A stretch of DNA of 34,288 bases, from positions 1 through 34,288 of the forward strand of contig PCUU01000018.1 in NCBI GenBank assembly GCA_002786855.1. Direction: 5' to 3'. Made by a program: the position numbers and the translations under genes. Source of the stretch: Cytophagales bacterium CG12_big_fil_rev_8_21_14_0_65_40_12. GTDB taxonomy: Bacteria; Bacteroidota; Bacteroidia; Cytophagales; Cyclobacteriaceae. Position 1 is the stretch's first letter, and the number at the start of each line of letters is the position of its first letter. Below the pieces are notes generated by a model. The model was not told the origin of the DNA and searched no databases. It worked only from the letters and a program-made list of their open reading frames with translations. Positions 7,378 through 25,168 of this stretch are shown one piece after another.

Positions 7378-7380
7378 GGC

Positions 7381-8511
7381 TTATTGAACTAAGGAGTTGT
7401 TGGTTTTGGTGGATTTTACAAGCATACCGTCATAGGCACCTGGAATAGGCCTATTGAGCATTTCTGTGCCATCAGGAAGTCCTTTTATAATGGCCGATTT
7501 ATCGGTAAAGTAGACAGCAGAAACTTCCTTCAACTCTAAGTGATCACCGTTGACGATAAAAACCTGATTTTCATTGACCAACAGGTTACGTGGAATTTCC
7601 AAGGCGTCTTTTTCGGATTTTGCGGCAATGTTGGCTTCCAAATACATTCCTTCAATAAGTCCTTCTCCATTTACACCTATGTAGACTTGGATGGTTTGGG
7701 TATTTTGATCGATACGACCGTTGACTCTTTTTACTGTGCCTAACCATTCCCTTTCGCCCGAAAGGTTCGAAAGTGCCACGTTTTCTCCCACTTTCAGAAT
7801 GTCCATGAATTGGGCATTGACGTTTACTTCAAGTTCGAATTCGTTTGGGTCGATAAATTCCCCAAGTTTTTGGCCAGATCGGATGAGTGTTCCTGGATTG
7901 ACCAAAGTTTCTGTGAGCACGCCATCAAAAGGCGCGCTGAGTTTGTATTTTTTATAGCGTTCCTCAAGGTTTTTGATCGAATAAAAAGTAGATACTACCT
8001 GACGACCATTTACGAAATATTTTTCCTTGTCATTGAGCGGCTCGGGCAGTGGCACCAAGTCTTTTTCAATATCGAATTGTTGAATGTAAGCTTCCCAGTT
8101 TTTGAATGATGCTGGATAGTCAAACCTTAAATCGGGCATCATAGATGTAATTAAGTCGAAAAGCGTGCTTCTCTGGGCGATTAGGCTGGTGTAAAATTCG
8201 CGGCTGTCGATATTCAATAGCACCTCGCCACGCTTGTAATACTGCCCTGCTTTAAAGGCTTTATTGGTGGGTTGAAATATTCCTTGAACTTCGGCAAATA
8301 GCTCGATTTTTCTCGAAGCAACAAGATTTCCGTTAGCATTGATCACAATTGGAATTTCGCTGTTCACCACCGACTGGCTAAAAACGGTTTTAATGGTTTT
8401 TGGAACTTCCGAAATGGGCCTTTTATTATTGTCGATCAGGTTTTTGGCCAGCAACCCAGCTCCAGCTAAAAAAATAAGACCTAATACAAGGCCAATGATT
8501 TTTCGTGTCAT
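7381..8511 (-). CDS. RND efflux periplasmic adaptor (membrane fusion protein)
   Basis: The 376-residue product begins MTRKIIGLVLGLIF, one N-terminal membrane anchor, followed by the HlyD/AcrA order: a first lipoyl half (VFSQSVVNSEIPIVINANGNL, then KRGEVLLNIDSREF), a helical hairpin, a second lipoyl half (YKLSAPFDGVLTETLVNPGTL) and beta-barrel and membrane-proximal domains. It bridges the RND pump and the TolC channel. The frame stays open upstream to 8586, but only through a TTG; the ATG at 8511 places the membrane anchor at the very N-terminus, so I chose it. First gene of the efflux operon, 3 bases before the RND gene. No local TetR or MarR regulator is adjacent, so control is unknown. Confidence 0.92.
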   Translation of the reverse strand: MTRKIIGLVLGLIFLAGAGLLAKNLIDNNKRPISEVPKTIKTVFSQSVVNSEIPIVINANGNLVASRKIELFAEVQGIFQPTNKAFKAGQYYKRGEVLLNIDSREFYTSLIAQRSTLFDLITSMMPDLRFDYPASFKNWEAYIQQFDIEKDLVPLPEPLNDKEKYFVNGRQVVSTFYSIKNLEERYKKYKLSAPFDGVLTETLVNPGTLIRSGQKLGEFIDPNEFELEVNVNAQFMDILKVGENVALSNLSGEREWLGTVKRVNGRIDQNTQTIQVYIGVNGEGLIEGMYLEANIAAKSEKDALEIPRNLLVNENQVFIVNGDHLELKEVSAVYFTDKSAIIKGLPDGTEMLNRPIPGAYDGMLVKSTKTNNSLVQ

Positions 8512-8658
8512 AGTTAATATGGTGTAAAGTATCTTAATGGAATCCTGTCCATTTTTGTTCAATGAAATTGGAATTAATTCTTGCAATAGCTAGACAAGCC
8601 AATACTTTCATGGTTTAGTTGGAATATTAATTATCAATGGAATCGTTTTCCGTATTGT

Positions 8659-11904: not shown

Positions 11905-12003
11905 AAAACCGTTGAAACGGTTTGGTTAAATCTGTAATTCATAGCCCACGGTTTAAACCGTGGGCTACGAATTGGTCTGCTTTAAAGAATGGTTTTAACC
12001 ATT
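11905..12003. repeat. REP-like palindromic element, copy 1
   Basis: Three palindromes lie in a row: an 8-base-pair stem with a 2-base loop (11906-11923), a perfect 26-base palindrome built on TAGCCCACGGTTT (11942-11967) that extends to 38 bases with one mismatch (11936-11973), and AATGGTT-TT-AACCATT (11988-12003). The second and third palindromes and the bases between them recur almost unchanged at 16253-16318. Such TAGCCCACGG palindromes are, from memory, widespread in Bacteroidota and look like REP sequences mobilised by Y1 (TnpA-REP) transposases; no such transposase is in the window. Confidence 0.75.
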
Positions 12004-12061
12004 TGTCGAACTCATGTCCATCTGTTAGGCCAGTCGAATCAAGCATTGCAAATGCCCTTAT

Positions 12062-12113
12062 GCCTGATTCCTAATTTCCTGATCCCCTGATTCACTGATT
12101 CACTGATGCTCCT
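12062..12113. repeat. Short CTGATTCC-type low-complexity tract
   Basis: About six degenerate units of the type CTGATTCC or CTGATTCA follow each other directly upstream of the promoter box at 12132-12184. A much longer tract of the same units precedes the second box (16405-16553), and a relic precedes the third. Confidence 0.6.
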
Positions 12114-12131: not shown

Positions 12132-12184
12132 AAACATTACGTCAATTGCCTTATTGAGTAGTGTTGTTATACCGAATAGGTTTG
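12132..12184 (+). promoter_or_regulatory. Shared promoter box A (upstream of the CHAT gene)
   Basis: A 26-base box (12132-12157, key core CGTCAATTGCCTTATTGA) leads into a perfect Bacteroidota promoter: -33 TTG at 12154-12156, exactly 20 bases, and -7 TAGGTTTG at 12177-12184. The ATG at 12214 lies 29 bases further on. The same box occurs at 16562-16587 and 21311-21336 with identical spacing. The box contains an inverted repeat TCAAT-N6-ATTGA overlapping the -33 element, where a regulator could bind. Confidence 0.85.
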
Positions 12185-12213
12185 TAGAGGTATCAATCAT
12201 ATTCCTTCAAACC

Positions 12214-15078
12214 ATGAAAAAACTTCTTTTCTCACTCGCTTTAGTTATTTCAATTGGGGCATTCGCTCAGGTAAGTATTCCACCAGCGGAATTACAGTCT
12301 CACCCAAGCTATGCTTCCTATCAACAGGCCAAACAATCAAATAACCTAAGCGCCAAGCTCAATGCAGCGATTGATTTGATGGAGGTTTATCCAGAAAATT
12401 CTCAGGCTTTTTTATTGACTTCTATGGCATTGTATAGCAACAACAAACCCACCAATGCAGTGGATTTAGTAAAATGGGCAGTAGCCTATAACAGCTACGA
12501 TGGTGCAAGCAGCTATTATGGCTTTATGTATTCAGTATTTGCCAATATGCCCGAAACAGCCAAAGATTTTTTATGGAACATGCAGAGCTTGGGTGAAAGT
12601 GCGGAAAATATGCAGCGGACCAGCCAAAACTTGAATGGGTACCTCAATTCGCTGGCAAGCTATCCTCAATTGACGAATGCCGTGCAAAAGGCGAGAGGTT
12701 ACCTTACTAATTACAATCAAGAAAGCATAGCACGGGCCAAAGCTACCTATGATTATTTAGCATCTAGCCTTGGGGCCTCCTATGAAGGAATCGCCAATAA
12801 TGAAACTGCCGATAAAATTTTGGCAGATTGGGTGGCAGCCGAAGCAGCAGTGAAACAAGGTTTGATTTCTAGAATGTTGTACAATGATGCATTGGTGAGT
12901 TTAGCGGCAATGGCAGAAAAGGTAAATTTCGTTTTTGGGCAGAAGCTGGAGCCACATTTAGAGAAGATCGTTTTCGATCAAGCTAATTACAGTTTGCCTT
13001 CGCGCTATCGTGCTTATGTAAAACTGGCCGGTCTTCAGGCGGCTTTAAAGCGTTGGGACAAAGTAGAATCTGCCAGCAATCTTATACTGACGGAACTAAA
13101 GGGCAATCTTCCTTCTACTTCGATATTGGCCAAAACCTACTTTTACCTTACCATGGCACTCACCGAGCAACGAAAATTGGCAGATGCTTCGGGTATGGCC
13201 GATGGTTATGCCGCTATTTTACCAAAACTCAAATCGCCCGAATATTTAGCCGAGGCTTACTATGTGATTTTGAGGGCTTACGCATTCAACAAAGAGATCG
13301 AAAAAGGCAAGGCCATCGCCCAGCGTGCCGAAAATTTCCTTAGAACTCCGGGAATCGACCAATACGAATACGTCAACTTTGTGAAAAACGGGCTTTCCAC
13401 TACAGCCAATATTTTGGGCGGAGGTGATGCATTGGCACTTACAGGCAACCCTTATAATGATGGCGTTCGATTTATGGGAAGCAACCAATATGCTGAAGCT
13501 GCTGTGCAATTCGAAAAAGCCCGCGAAGAGGAGATCGCAGCGCTGGACAAACTAGACCCATTGGCGCAGCGTGGTTACCTTGATAAATTTCAACGCATCA
13601 ACGGATTCTTGGCCTCAGCTTATTACGAAACCAAGCAATTCGATAAAATTTATGATGTGATTGAATCGAACCGATCTTACTCGCTTTTGAATGACAAAAG
13701 AAGTGGGAAAAAACAGCTCAGCCTCAAAGAACTTCAAGCGGTACTTGGTGAAAAGGAAGCCTATCTCTCATTTATAGATGTTTCTAAAGGTACTACCTAC
13801 GAAGGCACTTATTTGATGTGTTTGGTTACCAAAAAAGAAGTGTTCACCCGATACAACAGGTCGGCTGGTGCTTTTGTAGATTTATTGGAGAGCGATCCTG
13901 AGCTTGTGGTTTTAGAAAAAGAGTTAGCGCAACAGGAGTTCAGAAGTCCGAATCTTGATTATTTAACGGGTCAAAAAACACGCAAGCTCAACATGTTCGG
14001 GCCTGGCGAATTCAAATTAATGACGCAGTACCTAAGAAAACATATGGAGGCCAAAGTGGTAGACGGCCAATATGTGTTTTTCCAGAAAGAGAAGGTGCCA
14101 GATTTATTAAAGCGTTTCCACGTTACCTTTATCGATGGTTTAGAAGAAAAACTACAAGGCATTACCAAATTAACGATCAGCCCTGAGGGACTCATCGGTA
14201 CGATTCCTTTCGATGCCCTGATCGACTTTGATGGACGCTATTTAGCCGAACGCTTTGAAATCGGCTACATCCCGAATGCTGCTCTACTGCACACTTTGAG
14301 AACCCAGCCTAAAACGACCTATGAAAAAAGCGTATTGGGCTTTGGCGGAGCAACATATGCCAACTACACTACTGCCAAAGCGCCATTGAACTCACTGGGC
14401 GACTTGGAAAAACTTCGCTTTCGCGTAAGGGAAGACTTACAAAAGAACCAACCGCTAGATTATGCTTTTGCCACCTTCCAAGGAGAAGAGCCAATGGGAT
14501 ATTTGCAGGGAGGAAGAAAAGAAGTGGTGATCATCAAAGACATTATTCCCAATAGCGATGCTCGTTTGGACGATATGATGACTGAGAATGAACTCAAGCG
14601 CATGAGCAAAGCGAATGAATTAGGAAAATTTAAGGCCGTGCATTTGTCGAGCCATGCCAGCGTACATCCTTATGTATTTGATTTAAGTGCCATTGCCATG
14701 ACGGTAAAATCAACACCAGTAAATGGAGAGGATGGAATGCTCGTAGTAGGAGAGTTAGAAAAACTAAACTTGCCTGTTGATTTTGTGATGCTCAGCGCCT
14801 GCCAAACTGCATTGGGGGTAGAGTCGCCAGGAGATGGCATCAAAGGTCTGAACCAAGCCATTTTCAATGCCGGGGCCAACAGCAGCTTGACTTCATTATG
14901 GAGTGTAAGTGATTCAGGCACCATGTACCTCAGTGTAGAATTATATGATCGAATGTTCAACAAAAAAATGACGACTACCGCAGCTTTGGCCGAGGTAAAA
15001 CGCAATTTCATTGCAGGTAAATATGGCGATCAAAAGCATCCATATTTCTGGGCTCCATTTATTTATACAGGGTATTGA
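12214..15078 (+). CDS. Secreted TPR-CHAT (caspase-like) protein
   Basis: The 954-residue product has a signal peptide (MKKLLFSLALVISIGAFAQ), a long helical region of tetratricopeptide-like repeats (about residues 20-520) and a C-terminal CHAT domain (about 640-954). The CHAT catalytic dyad is present: His814 in VHLSSHASVH and Cys863 in VMLSACQTALG, followed by the family-typical SLWSVSDSGTM and HPYFWAPFIYTG. CHAT domains are caspase-fold peptidases, so this is probably an exported cysteine protease or a protease-like receptor. An open frame extends upstream to 12106, but the promoter -7 element at 12177-12184 lies inside that extension, so ATG 12214 is the real start. No neighbour is cotranscribed; hairpin repeats begin 39 bases downstream. 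The substrate is unknown. Confidence 0.93.
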   Translation: MKKLLFSLALVISIGAFAQVSIPPAELQSHPSYASYQQAKQSNNLSAKLNAAIDLMEVYPENSQAFLLTSMALYSNNKPTNAVDLVKWAVAYNSYDGASSYYGFMYSVFANMPETAKDFLWNMQSLGESAENMQRTSQNLNGYLNSLASYPQLTNAVQKARGYLTNYNQESIARAKATYDYLASSLGASYEGIANNETADKILADWVAAEAAVKQGLISRMLYNDALVSLAAMAEKVNFVFGQKLEPHLEKIVFDQANYSLPSRYRAYVKLAGLQAALKRWDKVESASNLILTELKGNLPSTSILAKTYFYLTMALTEQRKLADASGMADGYAAILPKLKSPEYLAEAYYVILRAYAFNKEIEKGKAIAQRAENFLRTPGIDQYEYVNFVKNGLSTTANILGGGDALALTGNPYNDGVRFMGSNQYAEAAVQFEKAREEEIAALDKLDPLAQRGYLDKFQRINGFLASAYYETKQFDKIYDVIESNRSYSLLNDKRSGKKQLSLKELQAVLGEKEAYLSFIDVSKGTTYEGTYLMCLVTKKEVFTRYNRSAGAFVDLLESDPELVVLEKELAQQEFRSPNLDYLTGQKTRKLNMFGPGEFKLMTQYLRKHMEAKVVDGQYVFFQKEKVPDLLKRFHVTFIDGLEEKLQGITKLTISPEGLIGTIPFDALIDFDGRYLAERFEIGYIPNAALLHTLRTQPKTTYEKSVLGFGGATYANYTTAKAPLNSLGDLEKLRFRVREDLQKNQPLDYAFATFQGEEPMGYLQGGRKEVVIIKDIIPNSDARLDDMMTENELKRMSKANELGKFKAVHLSSHASVHPYVFDLSAIAMTVKSTPVNGEDGMLVVGELEKLNLPVDFVMLSACQTALGVESPGDGIKGLNQAIFNAGANSSLTSLWSVSDSGTMYLSVELYDRMFNKKMTTTAALAEVKRNFIAGKYGDQKHPYFWAPFIYTGY

Positions 15079-15116
15079 GGGTTGATTGATATAACAGCAA
15101 ATGCTGAATCTAACCA

Positions 15117-15277
15117 TCATTGCTCCTCCGCTGAAGCTTAAGCGCAAGCGTTGCGAACCTGCCGAAGTTCTTCGAAGCGATGCTACTGGCGTGAAGCAAT
15201 CTCCCAGCCCAGCAACAAAGATCTAAGATTGCTTCGTCACCTTTCTTAGCTGTCGCAAGAAAGGTTTCTCGCAATGA
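15117..15277. repeat. Foldback repeat R1 of the GIY-YIG-associated array
   Basis: This 161-base imperfect palindrome is bounded by TCATTGC and GCAATGA. Inner arms GAAGCAATC (15193-15201) and GATTGCTTC (15227-15235) pair around a variable loop. The right arm carries a secondary hairpin, CCTTTCTT (15240-15247) and AAGAAAGG (15257-15264), around a 9-base loop AGCTGTCGC. The left arm holds a 22-base module beginning CGCTGAAGCT (15129-15150). An 88-base spacer (15278-15365) with AGGGTTATAAATCTTGAGGA links it to R2; that spacer recurs at 15967-16053. Confidence 0.85.
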
Positions 15278-15365
15278 CGCTCCGATCTTGTTTTTGCGGT
15301 TATTTATTGCAAGCAGAAATTATAATTAACAGGGTTATAAATCTTGAGGATGACTGCGTTAACCG

Positions 15366-15526
15366 TCATTGCGAACCTGCCGTAGTTTTTCGGAGTGATA
15401 AGATTTACGTGAAGCAATCTCTTTTTCAGGTAACGTTTGGGATAGATTGCTTCGTCACCTTTCTTCGCTACCGCAAGAAAGGTTTCTGCGCCAACGCTGA
15501 AGCTAAGGCGAAAGCGTGCGCAATGA
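15366..15526. repeat. Foldback repeat R2 of the GIY-YIG-associated array
   Basis: Same orientation and the same 161-base length as R1, with TCATTGC and GCAATGA ends and the paired GAAGCAATCTC / AGATTGCTTC arms. The secondary hairpin at 15458-15482 has the same CCTTTCTT stem with loop CGCTACCGC. Unlike R1, the 22-base CGCTGAAGCT module sits in the right arm (15495-15516). Beyond it, about 25 bases of the spacer sequence are kept before the sequence changes into the leader of the GIY-YIG gene near 15550. Confidence 0.85.
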
Positions 15527-15605
15527 CGCTCCGATTTTGCGTTTGCAGTAACGTGCACTAAAGATGAAGTAATGAAATCTCAATCAATTTTATTAATTTG
15601 AATTC

Positions 15606-15905
15606 ATGCCAAAAGGAGGTTTTGTTTATTTAGTAACCAACTTAACCCACTCCACTCTTTATACAGGAGTCACCTCTGACCTTGTTTCACGAATTATTCA
15701 ACATCGCGAGAAACATTTTCCAAATTCCTTTACAGCCAAGTATAAGTGTTGTAAGCTAGTATATTATCAGGCTTTCGGTCATATAGAATCGGCAATAGAA
15801 GAAGAGAAAAGAATTAAAGGAGGGTCACGAGCTAAGAAAATCAAGTTAATAGAATCCATGAATCCAAACTGGGAAGATCTCTATAATCACATTAAGGATT
15901 GGTGA
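15606..15905 (+). CDS. GIY-YIG nuclease domain protein
   Basis: The 99-residue product is a stand-alone GIY-YIG endonuclease domain of the short UvrC-N/YhbQ-like type. The first strand carries VYL (7-9) and the second LYTGVT (18-23), corresponding to GIY and YIG. The catalytic arginine is likely Arg29 in LVSRIIQHRE, and the metal-binding glutamate Glu67 in AIEEEKRIKGG. The family nicks or cuts DNA with a single active site. The gene is embedded in an array of foldback repeats: R2 ends 79 bases upstream, and the right half of another copy begins 8 bases after the stop. This placement suggests that the nuclease and the repeats travel together, as homing or MITE-like partners; that link is inferred. 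It has no cotranscribed neighbour. Confidence 0.9.
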   Translation: MPKGGFVYLVTNLTHSTLYTGVTSDLVSRIIQHREKHFPNSFTAKYKCCKLVYYQAFGHIESAIEEEKRIKGGSRAKKIKLIESMNPNWEDLYNHIKDW

Positions 15906-15912
15906 AATGGTT

Positions 15913-15966
15913 AGAGATTGCTTCGTCATAAGCCTTTGCCTTCGCAAGGCTTATTTCTCGCAATGA
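15913..15966. repeat. Right half of a foldback repeat (R3) directly after the GIY-YIG gene
   Basis: Only the right half of the repeat is present, starting AGAGATTGCTTCGTC and ending GCAATGA (15960-15966). Its secondary hairpin is ATAAGCCTT (15928-15936) and AAGGCTTAT (15946-15954) around loop TGCCTTCGC, so both sides of the stem differ from R1 and R2 while pairing is kept. A spacer matching the R1-R2 spacer follows (15967-16053). Confidence 0.85.
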
Positions 15967-16053
15967 CGCTCCGATTTTGTCTTTGCGGTTTTTGTAGCAA
16001 ACAGAAAGTATCATTATCAGGGTTATAAATATTGAGGATGACTGTGATAACCA

Positions 16054-16221
16054 TCATTGCTCCTCCGCTGAAGCTTTAGCGCAAGCGTTGCGAACCAGCT
16101 GATGCTATTCGGAGTGGTGGTGTATATGTGAAGCAATCTCTAGTTCAAATTACATTATCTGCTTGCTAGAGACTGCTTCGTTACAGTCCATTGCTATCGC
16201 ATGGTCTGTGCCTCGCAGTGA
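16054..16221. repeat. Foldback repeat R4 of the array
   Basis: A full copy of 168 bases, from TCATTGC to GCAGTGA (one change from GCAATGA), with GAAGCAATCTC and AGAGACTGCTTCG inner arms. Its secondary hairpin is ACAGTCCAT (16183-16191) and ATGGTCTGT (16201-16209), one T-T mismatch, around loop TGCTATCGC. The 22-base module is in the left arm (16066-16087), as in R1. After it, about 25 bases of spacer remain before the second REP-like palindrome. Confidence 0.85.
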
Positions 16222-16252
16222 CGCTCCGATTAGGCGTTTGTGGTCATTGTCC

Positions 16253-16318
16253 TTTATAGCCCACGGTTTAAACCGTGGGCTATAAATTGGTCTGTTTTAT
16301 GGAATGGTTTTAACCATT
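16253..16318. repeat. REP-like palindromic element, copy 2
   Basis: A perfect 34-base palindrome (16253-16286, arm TTTATAGCCCACGGTTT) is followed by the same linker as copy 1 (ATTGGTCTG...) and AATGGTT-TT-AACCATT (16303-16318). The first small hairpin of copy 1 is absent. Both copies are in the same orientation and lie 130-245 bases upstream of a shared promoter box. Confidence 0.8.
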
Positions 16319-16359
16319 TTGAATAACTATCCAAGTGCTCCTTTGCGAAGAATAGCAGC

Positions 16360-16392
16360 AGTAATGAGATTACTCTAAGTAATCTCATTACT
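16360..16392. other. Perfect 15-base-pair hairpin
   Basis: AGTAATGAGATTACT (16360-16374) and its exact complement (16378-16392) are separated by only CTA. No T-run follows on either strand, so it is not a standard terminator. It sits between the REP-like palindrome and the CTGATTCC tract upstream of the lipoprotein operon. Confidence 0.7.
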
Positions 16393-16404
16393 CAATGACC
16401 TGAT

Positions 16405-16553
16405 TACTAGCGTCCCCGATTTCCCGATTCCCTGATTTCCTGATTCCTGATTCCTGATTCCTTGATTCCCCGATTCCCTGATTTCCTGATTTCCTGATTC
16501 CTGATCCCCGATTCCCTGATCCCTGATCCCCGATTTCCTGATCCCTGATTCGC
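16405..16553. repeat. Degenerate CTGATTCC minisatellite
   Basis: About 150 bases consist of roughly eighteen units of 7-9 bases built on CTGATTCC, CCGATTCC or CTGATCCC. On the minus strand this makes a short open frame of G, N, Q, S and I residues that I do not regard as a gene. The tract ends a few bases before promoter box B, a place where changes in repeat number could alter promoter activity. Confidence 0.8.
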
Positions 16554-16561
16554 CAATTACC

Positions 16562-16614
16562 AAACATTACGTCAATTGCCTTATTGAACCGACTTAGGCT
16601 GGCAGGTAAGTTTG
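16562..16614 (+). promoter_or_regulatory. Shared promoter box B (upstream of the lipoprotein operon)
   Basis: The 26-base box at 16562-16587 is identical to box A. The -33 TTG is at 16584-16586, the spacer is exactly 20 bases, and the -7 TAAGTTTG is at 16607-16614, 25 bases before the ATG at 16640. Confidence 0.85.
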
Positions 16615-16639
16615 TAAGGTACTTAAAACCTGTTCAGTC

Positions 16640-18493
16640 ATGCGTCCTGAAAAAAAAGCCTTTATTCTCTTAATATCCCTTTTTTCAATTTTTGCTTGCG
16701 ACCCCAAAGAAGATGTTGATCCAACGGTTGAGGCCGTTCAAAACGTCACTTTTAAGAAAATCATGGAGCTTTCTCCCTTTGCAGCTGCCCAAAATATCAG
16801 CGTTAGCCCAAATGAGAAGTATATGATATTTTCATATAAAGAGAATACTGCCGTAAAGAATTATTACTCCAAAGATGGAGGAGAAACAGCTCAGGAACTG
16901 TTTATCTATGGAAATGACAAGGACAAGCCGATCCAAACGAATATTAGTAACGGTGGCTTATTTGTAACCACTGACGGAGGAGTGTATGACCTGAACAATA
17001 TCCGTTCGGGCTCTGCCGCCTTTTATTATGCAAAGGGAGTCACTGATTCAGGAAAACTGGTTTACATTCAGAATGATGGCGCCAATGGCAAAACCTTCTT
17101 TATCGACAATAACGGCACCTATGAAAATACTGGGGTGCGATTAACCATGGACGAAAATTTTTACCTAGGCACTTCAGGCGAAAAAATGGGTTTCTTCGAT
17201 TGGCGGAACAGGACCATTGCCGAGTTTGATGTCAGTGCACAAACCTATACCCAAACTACTTTAACCAACTTAAACTATTCGCAGCTCTATGGACTTGGAA
17301 ATAGCCAAAATAAAGTAAAAACTGACTATAGTTACGGTCATTTTGCTTACGCGAAAGAAGGAGGGGTAATCATCATCACTCCAAGTCAAGAAATTCGGTA
17401 TTATGATTATCCTGCTGACTATCAGATTTTTCAAAATACAGAGGGTGGCATGAAGCTGTTTGGCGACCATGCCTATGTCAACATCTTCGACCGATGGGGA
17501 GGAAAGAAAGTATATGTGGCTTCAGGCACTACATTAGAACCCATGAATCACGATTTTGCAGTTTGCCGAGTGGGAGATAAGGTCTACAGCCAAGGCTTTT
17601 TAGAAAATGGTACACGTTTTAAAAGCGGGATTATTAAGGAGTCTGATGGGGTAAAAGCTTATTTGCCACTTGAGTATGAATTCGAATTTGCCTCAAACCA
17701 AATGTTTGGAAAAACCTATGTTTTGGGTGATTATGCCTATGCGAGCGATAAGGTGTATGATCTCAATGCAGAGACTTATGCTACTTCGCCAATAGGCGAA
17801 ATTGTAAGTATTTATCATGATACTGGAAAAACACTGGCCTATACGGCAACAGGAACATATAGCAGCACCGATGGTAAAAATTGGACAGAAGAATCCACAG
17901 CACCTATGAAACCAGAATTGGTCACCAAAGGCACGGATGGAAAATATCATGCACTTAATTTGACCCAGCAAGTTTATGTGTCGCCAAGTACTCAAGCCAA
18001 AACCTATTCAGTAGATATTGAAGCTTATGTTTCTTCCAATGGAATTCAGTGGGAGCTAGTGGCAGGTTCGGCCACCAACAAGTCAGGAACTGGCCCACGG
18101 TCGATGACTTCTGATGGTAAGGTTTTCTTTCTTGACAATAATGTAGGTAGGGCAGGTATTTCCTTTTTCAGCGAAGACTTTGGGGAAAGTTGGGTGAGGA
18201 TTGTCAATGGTGAAAATACTACTACTGGACAGGCTGTTTCCTTAGATTTTCAAACTAGTGAATTTGAACTGAGCAATGGCAAGTTCTTATCAGTGCGTTT
18301 TGAATTCAGCGGACAAATGTTTCTAACTACTTGCGCAAACTCCATAGGCGACTGCACTGAAATAGAAATTCAGCCAAGTTTCAATACAGAAAGTATGTAT
18401 CAGTTCGATGATGGTTCTACCACACTCAGCTCCAACGATGAATTAGTCTTCAATACTTTGGATGGAATTTACCTTTCCAGCAGCTTGAAATAG
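16640..18493 (+). CDS. Asp-box beta-propeller-like lipoprotein
   Basis: The 617-residue product is a lipoprotein (LFSIFAC, Cys20) followed by an acidic linker. The body is rich in beta-strand repeats with several sialidase-type Asp boxes (S-x-D-x-G-x-x-W), for example SSTDGKNW, SSNGIQWE and SEDFGESW, which suggests a beta-propeller. Catalytic residues of true sialidases are not evident, so binding or scaffolding is more likely than hydrolysis. DPKEDVD just after the lipid-modified cysteine is compatible with surface export of Bacteroidota lipoproteins, though the match to the export signal is loose. The start is fixed by promoter box B 25 bases upstream. Two bases separate it from the next gene, so they form an operon. 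The function is unknown. Confidence 0.8.
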   Translation: MRPEKKAFILLISLFSIFACDPKEDVDPTVEAVQNVTFKKIMELSPFAAAQNISVSPNEKYMIFSYKENTAVKNYYSKDGGETAQELFIYGNDKDKPIQTNISNGGLFVTTDGGVYDLNNIRSGSAAFYYAKGVTDSGKLVYIQNDGANGKTFFIDNNGTYENTGVRLTMDENFYLGTSGEKMGFFDWRNRTIAEFDVSAQTYTQTTLTNLNYSQLYGLGNSQNKVKTDYSYGHFAYAKEGGVIIITPSQEIRYYDYPADYQIFQNTEGGMKLFGDHAYVNIFDRWGGKKVYVASGTTLEPMNHDFAVCRVGDKVYSQGFLENGTRFKSGIIKESDGVKAYLPLEYEFEFASNQMFGKTYVLGDYAYASDKVYDLNAETYATSPIGEIVSIYHDTGKTLAYTATGTYSSTDGKNWTEESTAPMKPELVTKGTDGKYHALNLTQQVYVSPSTQAKTYSVDIEAYVSSNGIQWELVAGSATNKSGTGPRSMTSDGKVFFLDNNVGRAGISFFSEDFGESWVRIVNGENTTTGQAVSLDFQTSEFELSNGKFLSVRFEFSGQMFLTTCANSIGDCTEIEIQPSFNTESMYQFDDGSTTLSSNDELVFNTLDGIYLSSSLK

Positions 18494-18495
18494 CC

Positions 18496-19530
18496 ATGAA
18501 AGAGCAACTCCCACTTTCTCCAGAAGACATTAAAAAGCTGAAGAAGCAAATGATTCCTATGCTCATCTTTCCCTTTGCGGTGGTGGTCATGTTTACGGTT
18601 TTCTATAAACTGGCTTTCAAGAACATGGACGATAGCTTCTTTCAGGACGGCATCAGCGAAAAGATCTTTATGGGATTTGCGCTGTTTTTCTTGGGCATTG
18701 TTGGCTACATGGTCTGGACTTCGGTCATCGATATAAAGCGGGGATTCAAATACCGCATTACAGGGGTTGTTACCGACAAACGGTTGAACATCCAGACCTC
18801 TACAAGGCATGGTTCTGCAGGGGGAAGATCAGGCAGTTCTGGCACCAGTTCCAGCACCACTCGACATTATTACCTCTACATCAACGATGAAGAGTTTTCG
18901 GTAGACTATAAGCACTATACCCGTGTGAAGGTGGGCGCTACGGTGGTGATGGACAGGGCACCAAAGTCCAGGCTCACCCTTTCTTTAACAGTACTGGCTA
19001 AAGAAGCCGAAGATCCACAGGCAACGAATCAAAACCGTGCAGAGAACATCAAGTTTCTGGAGAGCGAGATGCGGGAAGAGCGCTTTAGCGACAATGATCT
19101 TCAAGCGCTGAAGCAGATTTTCAGAGCGTACACCAAACGCAAGTTGCTCTTTATGCTACCCTTTGTAGTTGTTATTTTTGGAATGATCACCAATGGATTG
19201 CTGGGTTTTCTTATCGTGCTATTCCCCTTGTTTGTGGTGCCTTTGTGGCAGGGAGTAAGCGCCTTGCGCAGATGGGGCGAATACATCAGAAACAAAGGCT
19301 ACGCCCACAAACGCGGAGTCACAGCTTTGGTGGAAGACAAGCTCACCGTTACGGGCAACCGTAGGAAAGGAACAAATAAAGTCATTACCACTCGTGGTAC
19401 ATTATCGGTAAGCACGGTGCTTTATGACAGTCTGAACGTAGGGGAGAAGGTGATCATTTTCTTCCCTAAGTACGGCAAACTACCGCTAAGTGTGATGAAG
19501 CTGAATAAGGAGGAGTTTTATCTTTTCTAG
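18496..19530 (+). CDS. Membrane protein of unknown function, partner of the lipoprotein
   Basis: The 344-residue product has membrane segments at about residues 17-38, 52-74 and a double one near 213-255 (PFVVVIFGMITNGLLGFLIVL in part). Between them are two soluble regions, each a small beta-rich domain. The first carries a flexible Gly/Ser/Arg stretch (HGSAGGRSGSSGTSSSTTRH), and the two domains look distantly alike (GVVTDKRLNIQTS versus TALVEDKLTVTGN, each followed by a strand pair and a V-G-x-x-V-x-x turn), suggesting internal duplication. No signal peptide and no family I recognise; DUF3592-like proteins share this plan but I cannot confirm it. It starts 2 bases after the lipoprotein stop and should be cotranscribed from promoter box B. 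Confidence 0.7.
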   Translation: MKEQLPLSPEDIKKLKKQMIPMLIFPFAVVVMFTVFYKLAFKNMDDSFFQDGISEKIFMGFALFFLGIVGYMVWTSVIDIKRGFKYRITGVVTDKRLNIQTSTRHGSAGGRSGSSGTSSSTTRHYYLYINDEEFSVDYKHYTRVKVGATVVMDRAPKSRLTLSLTVLAKEAEDPQATNQNRAENIKFLESEMREERFSDNDLQALKQIFRAYTKRKLLFMLPFVVVIFGMITNGLLGFLIVLFPLFVVPLWQGVSALRRWGEYIRNKGYAHKRGVTALVEDKLTVTGNRRKGTNKVITTRGTLSVSTVLYDSLNVGEKVIIFFPKYGKLPLSVMKLNKEEFYLF

Positions 19531-19538
19531 AATTAACC

Positions 19539-19596
19539 TTTGCGCTCTCAGCGCCCTTAGCGATAAAATTTAACCGCAAAGCACGCTAAGGTCGCA
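19539..19596. repeat. Dispersed GCAAAG/CGCTAAGG-type repeat
   Basis: TTTGCG (19539-19544) and CCTTAGCG (19555-19562) are complementary to CGCAAA (19575-19580) and CGCTAAGG (19584-19591). The two pairings interleave rather than nest, so the RNA could form either stem or a pseudoknot. Sequences with CGCAAAG and CGCTAAGG GTCGCAGAG are, from memory, a frequent intergenic repeat in this phylum. It starts 8 bases after the stop of the membrane protein gene. Confidence 0.6.
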
Positions 19597-19698
19597 GAGT
19601 TTGCTCTTGATTCGCATCAAGTTGGAATTTGTTATTTGCCCTTTTGGGATTTACCGAAGGTCTATAGTTGAGTCGCAGGTCAGTCCTGTTTAATTGAG

Positions 19699-19728
19699 AA
19701 AGGCAGCACGTACGGTGCTGCTTTTTTT
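19699..19728 (+). terminator. Rho-independent terminator
   Basis: GCAGCAC (19703-19709) pairs with GTGCTGC (19715-19721) around a 5-base loop; the flanking A/T bases extend the stem, and seven T follow (19722-19728). It probably ends the lipoprotein operon, about 170 bases past its last stop. The remainder of 19531-19891 contains the dispersed repeat and nothing else I can name. Confidence 0.85.
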
Positions 19729-19891
19729 ATTACGACTGCTATCATGAGTGGGGATAAGAAAGCACTTGCATCTCGTCTCGCACATAGCCACGCCTTGATT
19801 TAAATTTATTAATTGTGGCGGACTATCCAATCTCCACCAAAATACCCTTACCGATGAAACCCCATTCATTCATAGCATTTGTTACCAGCTT

Positions 19892-20590
19892 TTATATTTT
19901 ACAAAGCGCAATTTCAAAGTTTTCGCCAGGTTGCCCTTCATATTCAATCTCATAGAACCGTAGTTGCTCCACAGGAATTGGTTTGAGCAGTTTGAAATTA
20001 CAATATTGAAGAAACTCAAATTCTTGCTTCTGAGACATATTGGGAATTTCTCTTCTCAAAAAGTCTAACGCCTCTTTAGCTGTTTTACCATCTTCCTTTT
20101 CGAGATCCTCATCAGGTACATCACGAACCTCAATCATTATTGGTTTGGTTTCTATATCAATGTATTGGCGGAAATTGAATAAATCTATCTCAGAGGGGAT
20201 ATTAACCTCAATTCCTTCATTTTGGAGCAGTTCGTATAATTGAATACACCTTTCCAGAATCTCACTTCCATACTTGTTCAAAACGGAATATGTAGCAGCT
20301 CGAATTCTGCTTAATGAAACGTAAATGCCATCATGTCGATAATAAAGGTTCAGGCTGTTTCCTTTTTCGTCCACTAGTTCATGAATACCTTGATGAACCA
20401 TTGCCCATGATGAATCTTTCAGTTCTTGGTGCTTTAAATTATGAGGAATATGAGTTTCACATAGTTCGAAAAGGAATTTGAGCACATCTAAATTTCTTAA
20501 TTCGATATTAGGGTTTATGGTGCCTAAACCGTGCTTCTTGATCGAATCTAAAAATATGGTTGATGTTCCATGAAAATACTTGAAATTCAT
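19892..20590 (-). CDS. ADP-ribosyltransferase-like protein, possible toxin
   Basis: The 232-residue cytoplasmic protein shows a pattern typical of ADP-ribosyltransferase (ART/PARP-like) folds: YFHGTS at residues 5-10 with a candidate NAD-binding histidine, then DGIYVSLSRIRAATYS (87-102), a tyrosine strand followed by a helix, and later the strands KPIMIEVRDV (149-158) and VEQLRFYEIEYEG near the end. The third catalytic position could be one of the late glutamates, but I cannot assign it. Similar layouts occur in RNA 2'-phosphotransferases and in toxin ARTs. The open frame begins at a TTG at 20605; the ATG at 20590, one base after the stop of the partner gene (TAACATG), is far more likely. The tight pairing with a small upstream gene resembles a toxin-antitoxin unit. 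Assignment is by eye and needs profile support. Confidence 0.6.
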   Translation of the reverse strand: MNFKYFHGTSTIFLDSIKKHGLGTINPNIELRNLDVLKFLFELCETHIPHNLKHQELKDSSWAMVHQGIHELVDEKGNSLNLYYRHDGIYVSLSRIRAATYSVLNKYGSEILERCIQLYELLQNEGIEVNIPSEIDLFNFRQYIDIETKPIMIEVRDVPDEDLEKEDGKTAKEALDFLRREIPNMSQKQEFEFLQYCNFKLLKPIPVEQLRFYEIEYEGQPGENFEIALCKI

Positions 20591-20591
20591 G

Positions 20592-20873
20592 TTATAGAAG
20601 TTCAATTGCTCTTTTCAGAGATTTTAGTTGTTCATAAGTCATTTTATTGATTGACGCGCGAAAAATTCCTTCATCGCCTTCTGCTTTATGAGTTCGACAA
20701 GATTTAATAATTGACTGAACACTTCCCCATTTGTATTCGGGCACTTCATTTTCATGCATCATGTCAATTTCACATACTGCATCTGTTAGTTGTTGTTCAA
20801 GGACTCCACGCCCCTTAAGTTTATCTTGAGCTTTTTCTCTAAGCTCCTTAAATCTTCTGTAAGTTGGTCTCAT
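20592..20873 (-). CDS. Small helical protein, candidate antitoxin partner
   Basis: The 93-residue protein is highly charged, begins MRPTYRRFKELREKAQDKLK and ends KMTYEQLKSLKRAIELL, both predicted helices. No known domain is recognised. It is the first gene of a two-gene leftward unit; one base separates its TAA from the ATG of the ART-like gene, so translation is probably coupled. A small upstream gene coupled to a larger enzyme-like gene is the common order of antitoxin then toxin, and that is the basis for the suggestion. It has no clear promoter in the 300 bases upstream that I can support. Confidence 0.6.
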   Translation of the reverse strand: MRPTYRRFKELREKAQDKLKGRGVLEQQLTDAVCEIDMMHENEVPEYKWGSVQSIIKSCRTHKAEGDEGIFRASINKMTYEQLKSLKRAIELL

Positions 20874-21310
20874 AGAGTAGATTTATTGCTGGTAACTTTG
20901 TGTATTGAGCACATTTATGCACGATATATTTCCAATAATTTACTAAAAATCCGCATTAGCCACCCCCCCATTTGTTGTATAACGTGCATAATTTCCATTT
21001 CCAGAAAAGCACAGGAGTCTAAAAAAGTCAGTGTGTTTTTTTCTTCACGGAAGTAAAGAATTTAAAAGAATATTAACAAGGGAAGGGGTTTGGAAGTGTT
21101 GGTGATGATTTCTCTAAGGCAATGCCACCCTTAACCCCGTCAGCGGTGGACAGCTAAGTCCGTTGTAGTTTCGGCTTGCACTGATGTCCTCCGCTGGCGG
21201 AGGTGGACATTCCAGTAAGCTCAGCTCTAAATGACCCATTGAACAGGTTTCTCCCCTGATTTCCTTTCTTCTTACTTCTCATTACCCAAATCCCACTACC
21301 CAATACACCC
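20874..21310. other. Gene-free stretch with palindromic repeat relics
   Basis: No credible gene lies here. Around 21135-21215 two GC-rich pieces resemble each other (GCGGTGGACA and GGAGGTGGACA), and CCTCCGC-TG-GCGGAGG (21188-21203) is a perfect hairpin of a type common between Bacteroidota genes. From 21251 a pyrimidine-rich CCCCTGATTTCC run precedes promoter box C, a relic of the tract seen upstream of boxes A and B. Confidence 0.55.
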
Positions 21311-21363
21311 AAAGATTACGTCAATTGCCTTATTGAATGCCGCAGGTGCTCAACCTAAGTTTG
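21311..21363 (+). promoter_or_regulatory. Shared promoter box C (upstream of the unknown secreted protein)
   Basis: The box at 21311-21336 differs from boxes A and B by a single base (AAAG instead of AAAC at its fourth position). The -33 TTG is at 21333-21335, then 20 bases, then -7 TAAGTTTG at 21356-21363, 27 bases before the ATG at 21391. Confidence 0.85.
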
Positions 21364-21390: not shown

Positions 21391-22398
21391 ATGATGAAAC
21401 GACATTTATTCTTTTTTGCGATCATTCTTTTTGCATCTTCTTCCCTGTCAGTAGCGCAAGAGGTGCAGGAGTATAAGGTTAAAATGCTAGGGCCGGCCAA
21501 TCTAAATTTTAGGAAAAGCCCAAAGAGAGTTGTGATTTCCGACTTTCAAGTGAATTACCAAACTGCCTTGAGTCTAGAAGACGAAAAGAAAGGCGGAAAA
21601 ATGTTCAGAGGTGGATTGAAAGGTGATGCAAAGGCGTCCTTGACCTTGGTACTTGAGGGTTTAGATCAAGAAGCACTACAAAAACTTACCGATCAACTCT
21701 ACGCTGATTATGTGAAGGAACTTCAATCACAAGGATTTGAAGTCGCTCCAATCGAGGAAGTTTGGAACCATAAATTATACCAAACGAGCCGCGATAAACG
21801 ATGGGAATTGAAAGCCGGCAACGGGGCAGAGCGCGGTGAACGTTTTGGTATGTTGCTAACCAGACCTTCAACCCACAAATTTGTGGTTTCTAAAAAGGAA
21901 TTCGACAAAACGAAGGCTGGAATTGCCACGCTGGCTGATTATGAAACTGGTACCGAACGAAAAATCGCCACTCAGAAGAACGATTTCATTTTCAATAAAG
22001 TGGTGGTGGTTATCAATGCTTTCGAAGATGCGCAAGGCGAAGGTTCAAAGGCATTGGGAAGGTTAGCAGGTACGGCACAAGTAAAAGCCGAAACGAATTT
22101 TAAGGTGAGCGAATTTAGCGTTATAAAATTCAATTTTGGAGAAGTTATGCCAAGGGGTGGAATAGTAGTTTCAGATGTTTTGGAGAAACAAAAATTTGAT
22201 GCTTTTCAAAGGGCAGATGTAGACAAGTTGGGCACCGATTATGGAAATATAATGACTGTCTGGGAAGTTGAAAACAGGGAAGACTCTGATTATATCACTG
22301 TGAAATGCGACCCGAAGAAATTCATTAAAGGTGCAGAATTAGGAACTTCTGCCTTTTTAAAGAGTGCCGTGAAAGAGTTAGCAGACAAGTCTAATTAA
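21391..22398 (+). CDS. Secreted protein of unknown function
   Basis: The 335-residue product has a clear signal peptide (about residues 1-23, ending VAQ), and tandem ATG codons give a one-codon uncertainty. The mature part is a mixed alpha/beta protein with many lysines; segments such as RVVISDFQVNYQTALSLEDE, a helix LQKLTDQLYADYVKELQSQG followed by FEVAPIEEVW, and KVVVVINAFEDAQGEG resemble the folds of periplasmic proteins that assemble nucleotide-binding-like alpha/beta domains, but I do not recognise a family. No lipobox, no membrane helix after the signal. Promoter box C places it in the same probable regulon as the CHAT protein and the Asp-box lipoprotein. It stands 138 bases upstream of a two-component system. 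Confidence 0.75.
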   Translation: MMKRHLFFFAIILFASSSLSVAQEVQEYKVKMLGPANLNFRKSPKRVVISDFQVNYQTALSLEDEKKGGKMFRGGLKGDAKASLTLVLEGLDQEALQKLTDQLYADYVKELQSQGFEVAPIEEVWNHKLYQTSRDKRWELKAGNGAERGERFGMLLTRPSTHKFVVSKKEFDKTKAGIATLADYETGTERKIATQKNDFIFNKVVVVINAFEDAQGEGSKALGRLAGTAQVKAETNFKVSEFSVIKFNFGEVMPRGGIVVSDVLEKQKFDAFQRADVDKLGTDYGNIMTVWEVENREDSDYITVKCDPKKFIKGAELGTSAFLKSAVKELADKSN

Positions 22399-22439: not shown

Positions 22440-22471
22440 CGTTGAGTGGGTCTTTAAAAGGCCGCTCAACG
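22440..22471 (+). other. Stem-loop between the secreted-protein gene and the kinase gene
   Basis: CGTTGAGTGG and CCGCTCAACG form a 10-base-pair stem with one G-U wobble, 41 bases after the stop codon at 22398. There is no T-run, so it is either a weak terminator or a 3' stabilising hairpin. Confidence 0.5.
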
Positions 22472-22536: not shown

Positions 22537-24504
22537 ATGTCTTCATTCCATCAACTTCGATTTGTAATAACAGTTTCATTGCTGCAATTGATTAGTCTCT
22601 GCTCACTGGCGCAGAATACAACTCAATCAGCTATTGACGCGCTCAAAGATTCTCTCGCTATTAAAACCGGAAAGGAGAGGGTAGAGATATTAGGAGATTT
22701 GGGCTTTAAATACCGAACCATCAACAAGGACAGTGCCTGGCATTACGTGCTCTTGGCCGATAAGGAAGCAAAGGCCACTGGAGATAGGGATCTTCAAGGC
22801 AGAATTTCAATGAATTTGGCGATTCTAAAAACAGAGGCTGGCGATTATGAAGACGCTATTTCCTCCTATAAACTGGCCATGACCTTGGTAGATTCTACCA
22901 ATGGTTCACCCACATTGAGTTTTGTTTATCACAATATGGCCAATGCCTACGAGCGCATGGGTGTGATTGATACCGCCATTTACTATTCATTAAAGGCACT
23001 CAGGCGTTACGAAATTGCCAATGATTCCCTGAGAATGGCTTCTGTCCGATTGAATATAGCGAGCCAATACAGGGTGATTAAGGAATATGAACTGTCAGAA
23101 AAGGTGAATATGGAGGCTTTGGAAATGTACAGGGCCTTAGGTGATGTGTTTTTTCAGGCGGCCATTGAAAACAATTTGGCCTTACTCAATAATGATCAAG
23201 AGCGGTATGAAAAAGCCTTGGTACATGCCAAAGAATCCTTAAAACTATGGCAGTCTGTTGGGCAAAGATTGGTAATTGCTTATAGCTATACCAATCTAGG
23301 AATTGCTCAAAAAGGCCTCAATCAGTTGAATGAGGCAGAAGAATCCCTTAAAAATGCCCTGAAACTTCAACAAGAACGAGGAGACCGATATGAAGTAATA
23401 TTCCTGAAAATGCACCTTGCAGATGTTCTAAATAGACGAGGCAATTATGCGGAAGCCGCAGATTTGGGTAAGGAAGCTTACCAAGGAGCGGTTGATGATG
23501 ATCTGCTTACTTTCCAGCAGAAAACGGCCCTAACACTTAGCAGGATTTACGAAAATCAGCGGAACTACCAGAATGCTTTGGTCTACCTGCAAAAGAGCAC
23601 GGCCGCTCAGGACAGTCTTTTTATTACAGAAAAGGCCAAGGAGGTGTTAAAACTCAAAGAGCAATACGAAACCGAGCAAAAGGAAAACGAAATCCTTCGG
23701 CAGCAAAATGAGCTGGTGAAGAGCGACCTGGCATTGAAAAAGCGTGATATTATACTTTTGGCGGGTGGTGGAATGGCCGCGCTATTTTTGGTCATCGGTT
23801 TTGTGGTATTTAGAGACCAACGATTGAAGGCAAGGGCACAAGAACGTGAGGCAGCCTTGCAGCGCGCAATGATTGAGGCCAAAGCCCAAGAAAGCCTGAA
23901 AGAGCAACGCATTCGAATTGCCAGAGATTTGCACGATAACATAGGTTCCCAGCTTACCTATATCACTTCAATTATTGAAAGCGCAAAGAAAGGGATAGAT
24001 CAAGGAGAAGCCTATATAACGGGTAAATTGGTGCAAATGGGCCAGTTTGCTATTATTACAATTTCAGAACTGCGCGATACGATTTGGGCCATGAATAAAG
24101 ACGAAATAAGTCTGGTCGATATTCAGGAAAGGACCAAAGAATTGGCGGCAATGGTTCATGAAGCCACAGATGACGCTATTATGGTAAAAATTGAAAGCGA
24201 CCCGAGCGATGTGGTATTCAATTCTTTTGCAGGAATGAACCTTTTCAGGATAATTCAAGAAGGGGTAAATAATGCCGTTAAGCACTCCAAAACAACCCAA
24301 ATTCACATAAAATTTAATGAAATGGCCGAGAGTGTCGGAGTAAGTATTTCCGATACAGGAAAAGGTTTTAACTTAAAAGATAAGTCCTTGGGCAATGGAT
24401 TGAGAATCATGAAAACACGTGCCGAAAAATCAGGGATTGACTTGGTATTGGAAAGTACGATCGGCAAAGGCACAACCATTCAGCTTAACCTCGCCAAACC
24501 TTAA
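22537..24504 (+). CDS. TPR sensor histidine kinase (HisKA_3/NarX-like)
   Basis: The 655-residue protein has a signal peptide, a periplasmic domain of tetratricopeptide repeats (about 60-365), a coiled-coil, one membrane helix (about 404-425), a second coiled-coil and a cytoplasmic kinase of the HisKA_3 class. The phospho-accepting His466 is in RIARDLHDNIGSQL. The ATPase has its N-box (FRIIQEGVNNAVKH), G1 (DTGKGF) and G2 (GNGLRIM). TPR kinases with this plan are common in Bacteroidota. It lies 10 bases upstream of its cognate NarL-type regulator, forming a two-component operon. The signal sensed by the TPR region is unknown, and the targets are not evident, although the promoter boxes A-C nearby offer candidates to test. 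Confidence 0.95.
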   Translation: MSSFHQLRFVITVSLLQLISLCSLAQNTTQSAIDALKDSLAIKTGKERVEILGDLGFKYRTINKDSAWHYVLLADKEAKATGDRDLQGRISMNLAILKTEAGDYEDAISSYKLAMTLVDSTNGSPTLSFVYHNMANAYERMGVIDTAIYYSLKALRRYEIANDSLRMASVRLNIASQYRVIKEYELSEKVNMEALEMYRALGDVFFQAAIENNLALLNNDQERYEKALVHAKESLKLWQSVGQRLVIAYSYTNLGIAQKGLNQLNEAEESLKNALKLQQERGDRYEVIFLKMHLADVLNRRGNYAEAADLGKEAYQGAVDDDLLTFQQKTALTLSRIYENQRNYQNALVYLQKSTAAQDSLFITEKAKEVLKLKEQYETEQKENEILRQQNELVKSDLALKKRDIILLAGGGMAALFLVIGFVVFRDQRLKARAQEREAALQRAMIEAKAQESLKEQRIRIARDLHDNIGSQLTYITSIIESAKKGIDQGEAYITGKLVQMGQFAIITISELRDTIWAMNKDEISLVDIQERTKELAAMVHEATDDAIMVKIESDPSDVVFNSFAGMNLFRIIQEGVNNAVKHSKTTQIHIKFNEMAESVGVSISDTGKGFNLKDKSLGNGLRIMKTRAEKSGIDLVLESTIGKGTTIQLNLAKP

Positions 24505-24514
24505 ATGCACTTAG

Positions 24515-25168
24515 ATGAAAATTAAAACCGCGATTGTAGACGATAATAGCTTTTTAGCAAGGGTCATCAACGAGAAACTATCCGAATATGAAGACATCGA
24601 TATCAAATACACCGTCTATAATGGAAGTGAGTTTTTGGCTAAACTGGAGAAAAATCATAACCTAGATTTGGTGTTGATGGACATTGAAATGCCAGTGTTG
24701 GACGGCATCGAAACGGTGACCATCATCAAGCAAAAATATCCTCATATTAAAGTGATCATGCTTACGGTTTTCGATAATGACGAAAACATTTTCAATTCGA
24801 TTCGGGCTGGGGCAGATGGCTATTTGTTGAAGGAAGTGTCTGGAGAAAAGCTATACCGATCCATTGTTGAAACCATGGAAGGCGGTGCAGCAATGAGCCC
24901 TTCTATTGCCGTAAAAACTTTAAAGCTTCTGCGTTTTCCCGAAAAACGAGAGTTACTAACCATTGACGAAGACCTAATAGAATTGAGTACTCGCGAACGG
25001 GAAGTATTGGAGCAGTTGGCCGAAGGCTTGAGTTATACGCTAATTGCGAATAATCTATTCCTATCACCAAGTACAGTGAGGAAACACATCGAAAATATTT
25101 ACAAAAAACTGCAAGTCCATAATAAGCTGGAAGCAGTCCAAAAGGCCAGAAGGCAGAGTTTGATTTGA
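24515..25168 (+). CDS. NarL/FixJ-family response regulator
   Basis: The 217-residue protein has an N-terminal receiver (about 1-120) with the acidic pair in IVDDNSF, phospho-acceptor Asp56 in VLMDIEMPVLDG, and conserved Thr and Lys (LTVFDND and LLKEVSG). A LuxR-type helix-turn-helix follows (about 150-212, LSTREREVLEQLAEGLSYTLIANNLFLSPSTVRKHI in parts). It is phosphorylated by the kinase encoded 10 bases upstream and would act as a transcriptional regulator. Its stop lies 5 bases from the end of the convergent SnoaL-like gene. Confidence 0.96.
   Translation: MKIKTAIVDDNSFLARVINEKLSEYEDIDIKYTVYNGSEFLAKLEKNHNLDLVLMDIEMPVLDGIETVTIIKQKYPHIKVIMLTVFDNDENIFNSIRAGADGYLLKEVSGEKLYRSIVETMEGGAAMSPSIAVKTLKLLRFPEKRELLTIDEDLIELSTREREVLEQLAEGLSYTLIANNLFLSPSTVRKHIENIYKKLQVHNKLEAVQKARRQSLI

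Follow-up and report, generated by a model that had tools for sequence, protein, structure and literature searches.

What arrangement would place one nearly identical sequence ahead of three separate sets of genes for apparently exported proteins? The question is raised by a 34,288-nucleotide (nt) stretch of DNA, hereafter the window, which is one whole contig (PCUU01000018.1; here G000:C74) of the 4.06 Mb, 99% complete genome of Cytophagales bacterium CG12_big_fil_rev_8_21_14_0_65_40_12 (assembly GCA_002786855.1). On its forward strand, which also bears the operators, core promoters, hairpin and signalling genes described below, 26-base boxes precede genes for a CHAT-domain protein of 954 amino acids (aa; 12214..15078), a lipoprotein-like protein of 617 aa (16640..18493) and a 335-aa protein that we call gene C (21391..22398). 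Behind gene C follow a sensor histidine kinase with TPR repeats (22537..24504) and a NarL/LuxR-type response regulator (RR; 24515..25168). On the strength of sequence comparisons, we propose with a probability of about 0.78 that the box would be the operator of this RR, the partner of the TPR kinase, and that the RR would activate the three operons.

The boxes and their core promoters

The initial annotation had pointed to three nearly identical boxes (12132-12157, 16562-16587 and 21311-21336), each leading into a TTG, exactly 20 bases, a -7 element and 25 to 29 bases before the ATG, and both observations hold. Pairwise identity of the boxes is 26/26, 25/26 and 25/26, and mismatch scans of genome and window together with an alignment of the sites identified within each the same 16-mer, a 7-2-7 palindrome reading TACGTCA-AT-TGCCTTA (operator 1, 12138..12153; operator 2, 16568..16583; operator 3, 21317..21332). 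The site alignment locates the first core promoter at 12154..12184 (-33 TTG at 12154-12156, N20, TAGGTTTG at 12177-12184), the second at 16584..16614 (TTG from 16584, N20, TAAGTTTG from 16607) and the third at 21333..21363 (TTG from 21333, N20, TAAGTTTG from 21356), with 29, 25 and 27 bases between the -7 element and the ATG, respectively. All three boxes are associated with a Bacteroidota sigma-A promoter (TANNTTTG and an upstream TTG). TTG-N20-TANNTTTG also occurs at 9363 and 28795 with no box, which marks the core promoter as generic and leaves the box as the specific element.

As had been noted for the downstream bases, resemblance ends with these elements. The 20-base spacers are equal at only 4-6 of 20 positions in pairwise comparison and the 80 bases past the -7 region match at 23-27/80, so that the spacers and downstream flanks of the three sites are unrelated. 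Pairwise matches in the two 40-base upstream blocks amount to 13-22/40, the top value (22/40) being that of sites 1 and 2, which have CTGATTCC-like repeats in common in these blocks.

The box is also rare. With up to three mismatches to its 22-base core, the whole genome contains three forward and no reverse matches (reversed control, 0), each with the promoter and less than 13 kb from the RR gene, and not the hundreds of intragenic or promoterless copies by which the initial annotation would have recognized a dispersed repeat. No match at this threshold was obtained when the window was shuffled 100 times. Relaxing the search to a 47-base pattern (a degenerate box with its promoter, three mismatches), a level at which reversed controls match too in related genomes, added two weak places on contigs C82 and C85.

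The anatomy of the operator emerges from its relatives. The core sequence of the window, TACGTCAATTGCCTTA, has the variants TACGTCAATTGCCGTA and TACGGCAATTGCCTTA, and becomes the perfect palindrome TACGGCAATTGCCGTA in Flagellimonas amoyensis (locus L143). In the relatives, the operator is a 16-bp inverted repeat, TACGNCA-WW-TGNCGTA, composed of two heptamers around a 2-bp centre and followed directly by the -33 TTG. It has the 7-2-7 geometry of NarL-type inverted heptamers, with six of eight pairs in the window and seven or eight of eight in some relatives, and orthologous promoters of other species retain the box as different variants. If the TAnnTTTG element of Flavobacterium psychrophilum, which spans -12 to -5 in the cited passages of PMC9723704, is taken as the yardstick, the 16-mer covers -51 to -36 and is centred at -43.5. 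A second inverted repeat spotted by eye, TCAAT-N6-ATTGA, is true in the genus of the window and not generally at Flavobacteriaceae sites, which generally show TACG...CGTA instead; it was dropped.

The distance between operator and promoter is fixed, as best seen in 247 boxes from 137 loci that were picked with no promoter information: TANNTTTG falls at the offset of the window in 48 of them, against 3 for the next offset. Loci L127-L131, part of the 137, were included because the family scan described below had shown boxes there. Our sets of 49, 43, 85 and 113 sites were chosen using box and promoter, and conservation within them is therefore partly by choice. A search for box plus promoter returned 49 sites from the window and 61 further loci, and its palindrome form 43, with no match for either reversed control. 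The spacer measures 20 in 108 of the 113 box sites from all loci (ties were assigned to 20, and 10 of the 113 have no open reading frame of at least 80 aa inside 150 nt). In genus g103 (e.g. G352, G356, G326, G322 and G305) we observed two further flavours of box, TAGGGCATTTGTCGTAT and TACGACAAATGGCGTATTTCC, with TANNTTTG at 20.

Co-occurrence and covariation with the response regulator

Orthologues of the RR (85-100% identity; next best, 49%) are found in 7 of 19 genomes of the genus, whose name we infer from the nearest named relatives of the RR, in Roseivirga thermotolerans, R. spongicola and R. seohaensis. The full box and promoter with no mismatch occurs in exactly these seven genomes and in none of the other 12 (Fisher p=2e-5 for 7/7 versus 0/12; the genomes are related, and p-values in this work are not corrected for phylogeny). 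Searched alone with up to three mismatches, the box gives at least three matches in each of the seven, one match with three mismatches in each of G001 and G013, and none in the other 10. The two genomes with the next-nearest RRs (G011, 49%; G007, 48%) each display a pair of box-like sites next to that RR, where the spacing is shifted or the -7 element weak. At three mismatches the scan for box plus promoter matches 13 of the 19 genomes and reversed controls match in several, so only its rows with 0-2 mismatches carry weight. One further box-like site with three mismatches lies on another contig of G004, and the sites of G015 are spread over two short contigs that have one promoter in common. 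G014, which is devoid of the RR orthologue, provides a natural control: upstream of its 48%-identical lipoprotein homologue there is a -7 element and no box.

The association extends to the family. Of 390 genomes, 44 carry box plus promoter with at most one mismatch; 41 of these 44 encode an RR relative at E<=1e-45, compared to 31 of the 346 others, and the reversed-pattern control matched none of the genome rows listed. In named loci around RR relatives, mostly from Flavobacteriaceae, 85 sites were detected over 80 loci with none for the control. This count includes six sites in L133-L136, records that also appear as genus loci G016, G015, G012 and G006, as well as two palindromes that were scored once per strand (L137 and L139), and many of the 80 loci are siteless. 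In four loci (L119, L122, L145 and L150), a box lies in front of the RR gene itself.

Box presence tracks the residues of the RR recognition helix. In a set of 91 loci with an RR identity of at least 60%, from which L079 was left out as a duplicate of L141, a helix starting with SP[SNA]T[VI]RKH is accompanied by a site in 43 of 47 loci, and one starting with xGT[VI]RKH in 6 of 35. Distant RRs with a TVKKH helix are located near TAATCCATATGGGTTA (L118), TACTCCATATGGGTTA (L120) and TAACCCATTTGGGTTA (L121). Promoters close to these RRs (L118:10448, L120:5523 and L121:10419; TVKKH/ISNLY helices) contain TAAYCCATATGGGTTA-like palindromes, not TACGNCA, a possible switch in operator specificity.

The signalling pair and its exported targets

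The kinase associates a signal-peptide-like start with TPR repeats, HisKA_3 and HATPase_c (PF13424, PF07730 and PF02518, above cut-off), the architecture of FimS-like TPR histidine kinases; the start and an internal hydrophobic stretch were read by eye. The RR, located 10 nt downstream, is of the NarL/LuxR type, with a receiver (PF00072, E=5e-24) and a GerE helix-turn-helix (HTH) domain (PF00196, E=1.3e-18) both above the gathering score, and shares 81-83% identity between Roseivirga and Flagellimonas. Many of the Bacteroidota loci examined contain a comparable kinase/NarL-type pair. Gene C, kinase and RR follow one another in the same order and on the same strand in all seven genus genomes with the RR orthologue. 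In four of them, a 214-215-aa gene follows gene C and precedes the kinase gene, at distances of 6-7 and 30 nt, and the kinase-RR gap is 229-392 nt; the other three, including the window, have a kinase-RR gap of 10-27 nt and a gap of 138-298 nt between gene C and the kinase. In the window, a strong hairpin without a T-run (22440..22471) separates gene C from the kinase gene. It is possibly a partial terminator or attenuator, and may govern the balance between target and regulator.

The first target had been labelled a secreted TPR-CHAT protein. CHAT is confirmed by PF12770 (E=1.1e-46) and by the His/Cys pair, and the start is signal-peptide-like; TPR is a label of the initial annotation that is not among the Pfam matches, which comprise only CHAT and a sub-threshold DctP. 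The motifs of His814 and Cys863, which we take to be the catalytic residues, are present in 9/9 sequences checked (window and eight relatives), and a comparison with PDB sequences gave no match. The lipoprotein-like protein, so called from an inspection of its N-terminus by eye, has one strict Asp-box motif (SxDxGxxW), found in 6/7 lipoproteins, and no Pfam match. Its gene is followed after 2 nt by that of a 344-aa membrane-protein-like partner (18496..19530; hydrophobic stretches seen by eye), with which it probably forms one operon. Gene C, characterized from its sequence and neighbourhoods, encodes a signal-peptide-like N-terminus and has no Pfam or NCBIfam match. Its AlphaFold2 model has a mean predicted local distance difference test (pLDDT) score of 53.7, and neither Foldseek against the PDB (E<=0.001) nor a profile search of PDB sequences returned a match. 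Relatives of gene C adjoin kinase/RR pairs in several genomes.

The proposal of a small regulon of exported products survives in part: the regulon is dedicated, fused to its promoters and led by genes with signal-peptide-like starts, and what had been missed is the NarL-type palindrome, the kinase and RR, and a box-led MORN-like gene ahead of the CHAT gene. In the seven genus genomes, the box heads the CHAT gene in three and the MORN-like gene followed by CHAT in four, the name MORN-like being read from sequence, without a Pfam result. The box stands ahead of the lipoprotein gene in 7/7 and of gene C in 7/7, plus a few extra genes. Since the genus loci follow two operon orders with other genes interposed, the box travels with the operon. 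All 27 box-led genes of these loci start with a signal-peptide-like stretch as judged by eye, and a hydrophobicity heuristic finds such a start in 96 of 103 box genes from all loci, four of the seven failures being RR genes. Outside the genus, mainly in Flavobacteriaceae, the box heads other exported-looking families, the largest of which is lipoprotein-like, about 172 aa long and represented by 28 sites.

The phylogenetic co-occurrence put forward by the initial annotation was analyzed, and the three families (CHAT, lipoprotein and gene C) are inherited together. CHAT at 70% identity or more occurs in 7/7 RR genomes and 0/12 others (next best by E-value, 29%), and gene C at 57% or more in 7/7 and 0/12 (45% in G003, 33-35% in some others). 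A lipoprotein homologue is present in 7/7 at 60% or more, and in 1/12 others (G014, 48% identical). This pattern fits a partnership between the products but does not show one. A protease-target relation among them, as put forward by the initial annotation, would be a further hypothesis. In a Bacteroidetes metagenome-assembled genome (MAG), a box-led 510-aa gene and a CHAT-like stretch adjoin a box-led RR (L145:5457-10648). The stretch is 27% identical to the CHAT protein of the window, with one stop within the aligned part, and may constitute another CHAT link to this RR family.

The remainder of the window includes consecutive genes for an SCO1/SenC protein, a short protein with no Pfam match and a YHYH-domain protein (799-2775), a resistance-nodulation-division (RND) efflux operon (2874-8586; OEP, AcrB-type pump and HlyD-type adaptor) and a small HTH gene overlapping a 434-aa gene (28864-30518), a pair that looks like HipB/HipA. 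Two copies of a 64-bp repeat with an internal inverted repeat (11941-12004 and 16256-16319, 92% identical) lie upstream of boxes 1 and 2 and look like the repetitive extragenic palindromic (REP) type. CCTGATTCC-like repeats are also found upstream of these two boxes (12078-12100 and 16423-16499), and CCTGATTNCCTGATT, allowing one mismatch, has 18 copies in the genome, eight of which are in the window.

Mechanism, alternatives and known systems

In the mechanism that we propose, the kinase would sense something in the periplasm and phosphorylate the RR, a dimer of which would then bind TACGNCA-WW-TGNCGTA just upstream of the -33 TTG, centred at about -43.5. From the box, the RR would recruit the sigma-A polymerase to the operons of CHAT, of the lipoprotein and membrane protein, and of gene C. 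The DNA side of this mechanism has good support, since box, fixed register, palindrome, genomic restriction, co-occurrence with the RR and covariation with its helix are all observed. Read-through from gene C into the kinase and RR genes could create a positive feedback, to which we give roughly even odds. The gene arrangement speaks against this last step, given that all seven genus genomes carry one gap of 138-392 nt among gene C, kinase and RR; these gaps and the hairpin of the window make read-through as far as the RR doubtful.

The same RR acting on the same operator could instead repress its targets by covering the -33 element. Such occlusion is sterically possible because the palindrome abuts the -33 TTG, and NarL itself represses frdA according to the cited part of PMC4549865. 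A single fixed spacing (48 versus 3; 108 of 113) nonetheless suits contact between an activator and the polymerase better than occlusion, and in the cited passages of PMC1974823 FimR, from the comparable FimS/FimR pair, is an activator of its targets. We consider repression unlikely.

Several observations weigh against the assignment of the box to this RR. In the family, 31 of 72 genomes with an RR relative have no box plus promoter at one mismatch or fewer, and three box genomes (G248, G287 and G395) have no RR relative at E<=1e-45. Box genomes are moreover confined to 4 of 84 genera and are related. The box alone with two mismatches matches 160 of 390 genomes, mostly at one or two sites, and its reversed control matches many, which leaves only box plus promoter as specific. 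Where the RR has a PKT/PPT helix, just 2 of 9 loci contain a site, and L171, L186 and L202 have a matching helix yet no site. The RR of one MAG record (L079/L141) is 82% identical and has a matching helix, yet the examined part of its contig shows neither a box nor a kinase match. The first two of these observations could indicate that an unlinked transcription factor other than the RR uses the box as its operator, with the kinase/RR pair as one target at most. Such a factor would have to accommodate the covariation with the recognition helix, the co-occurrence of box and RR in genus and family, the box ahead of the RR gene in four loci and a palindrome of NarL 7-2-7 size, and we judge it quite improbable.

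That the box belongs to the promoter of an alternative sigma factor, as its overlap with the -33 region might suggest, is very improbable: the -7 element is the usual TANNTTTG, the box has palindromic symmetry, and a Pfam scan of 20 window proteins detected no sigma-factor gene. A dispersed repeat, duplicated block or trace of recent promoter duplication, to which the near identity of the three window copies and the 64-bp and CTGATTCC-like repeats shared by sites 1 and 2 might point, was rejected as having next to no chance of being correct, given only three copies in 4.06 Mb, each promoter-linked, their differing spacers and downstream flanks, and the different variants retained by orthologous promoters of other species.

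A broader and rather doubtful extension would be an envelope sense-and-cleave module common to Roseivirga and Flagellimonas. The TPR kinase would sense peptides or client proteins handled by the exported CHAT protease and the products co-regulated with it (MORN-like protein, Asp-box lipoprotein and gene C), whereupon the RR would raise the expression of all of them. The operator family might then be a general read-out code of Bacteroidota TPR-kinase/NarL-type systems, operator and helix diverging together.

No description of this box or operator was found in the literature, as judged from titles and abstract openings among the matches listed, with few subscription papers covered. The core promoter agrees with the Bacteroidota sigma-A promoter (TAnnTTTG at the F. 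psychrophilum position cited above, with an upstream TTG), to which the window adds a palindromic operator joined to the -33 TTG with invariant spacing. The RR shares its receiver and LuxR-type HTH with E. coli NarL. According to the cited passages of PMC4549865, NarL binds 16-bp 7-2-7 sites, of which TACCCCTAAAGGGGTA is an engineered example, and the 7-2-7 site through which it acts at napF is assigned to -40 to -49. The box resembles these operators in its inverted heptamers, 2-bp centre, TAC...GTA ends and position near -44 (napF), and differs in its heptamer, TACGNCA instead of the TACCCCT of the engineered site. The RR scores 121.9 bits against a cut-off of 250 for the NarL equivalog NF007935, which places it outside that group; the kinase is of another kind, and the genes scanned reveal no nitrate link.

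The nearest known system is FimS/FimR of Porphyromonas gingivalis, described in the cited passages as a sensor kinase whose periplasmic domain carries TPR repeats and a regulator that binds promoters of surface-structure genes, those of fimbriae (PMC1974823, PMC11053733), with an input signal that is unknown (PMC11053733). The window pair likewise combines a kinase bearing TPR repeats, possibly in the periplasm, with an RR that, we propose, binds the promoters of its targets. Its kinase matches the NCBIfam model HK_Porph_FimS (E=1.6e-20) with 72.9 bits, far below the 600-bit cut-off, and may therefore work like FimS while not being shown as FimS. The targets also differ, fimbriae in one case and CHAT, the lipoprotein-like protein and gene C in the other, and the cited passages give no FimR operator sequence to set beside the box. 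The relation between operator and recognition helix is unusually clear here. A concrete operator, its promoter distance, an exported target set and covarying helix residues are now available for this RR clade, making its regulons predictable from sequence, and an exported CHAT protein would thereby be linked with a defined signalling input.

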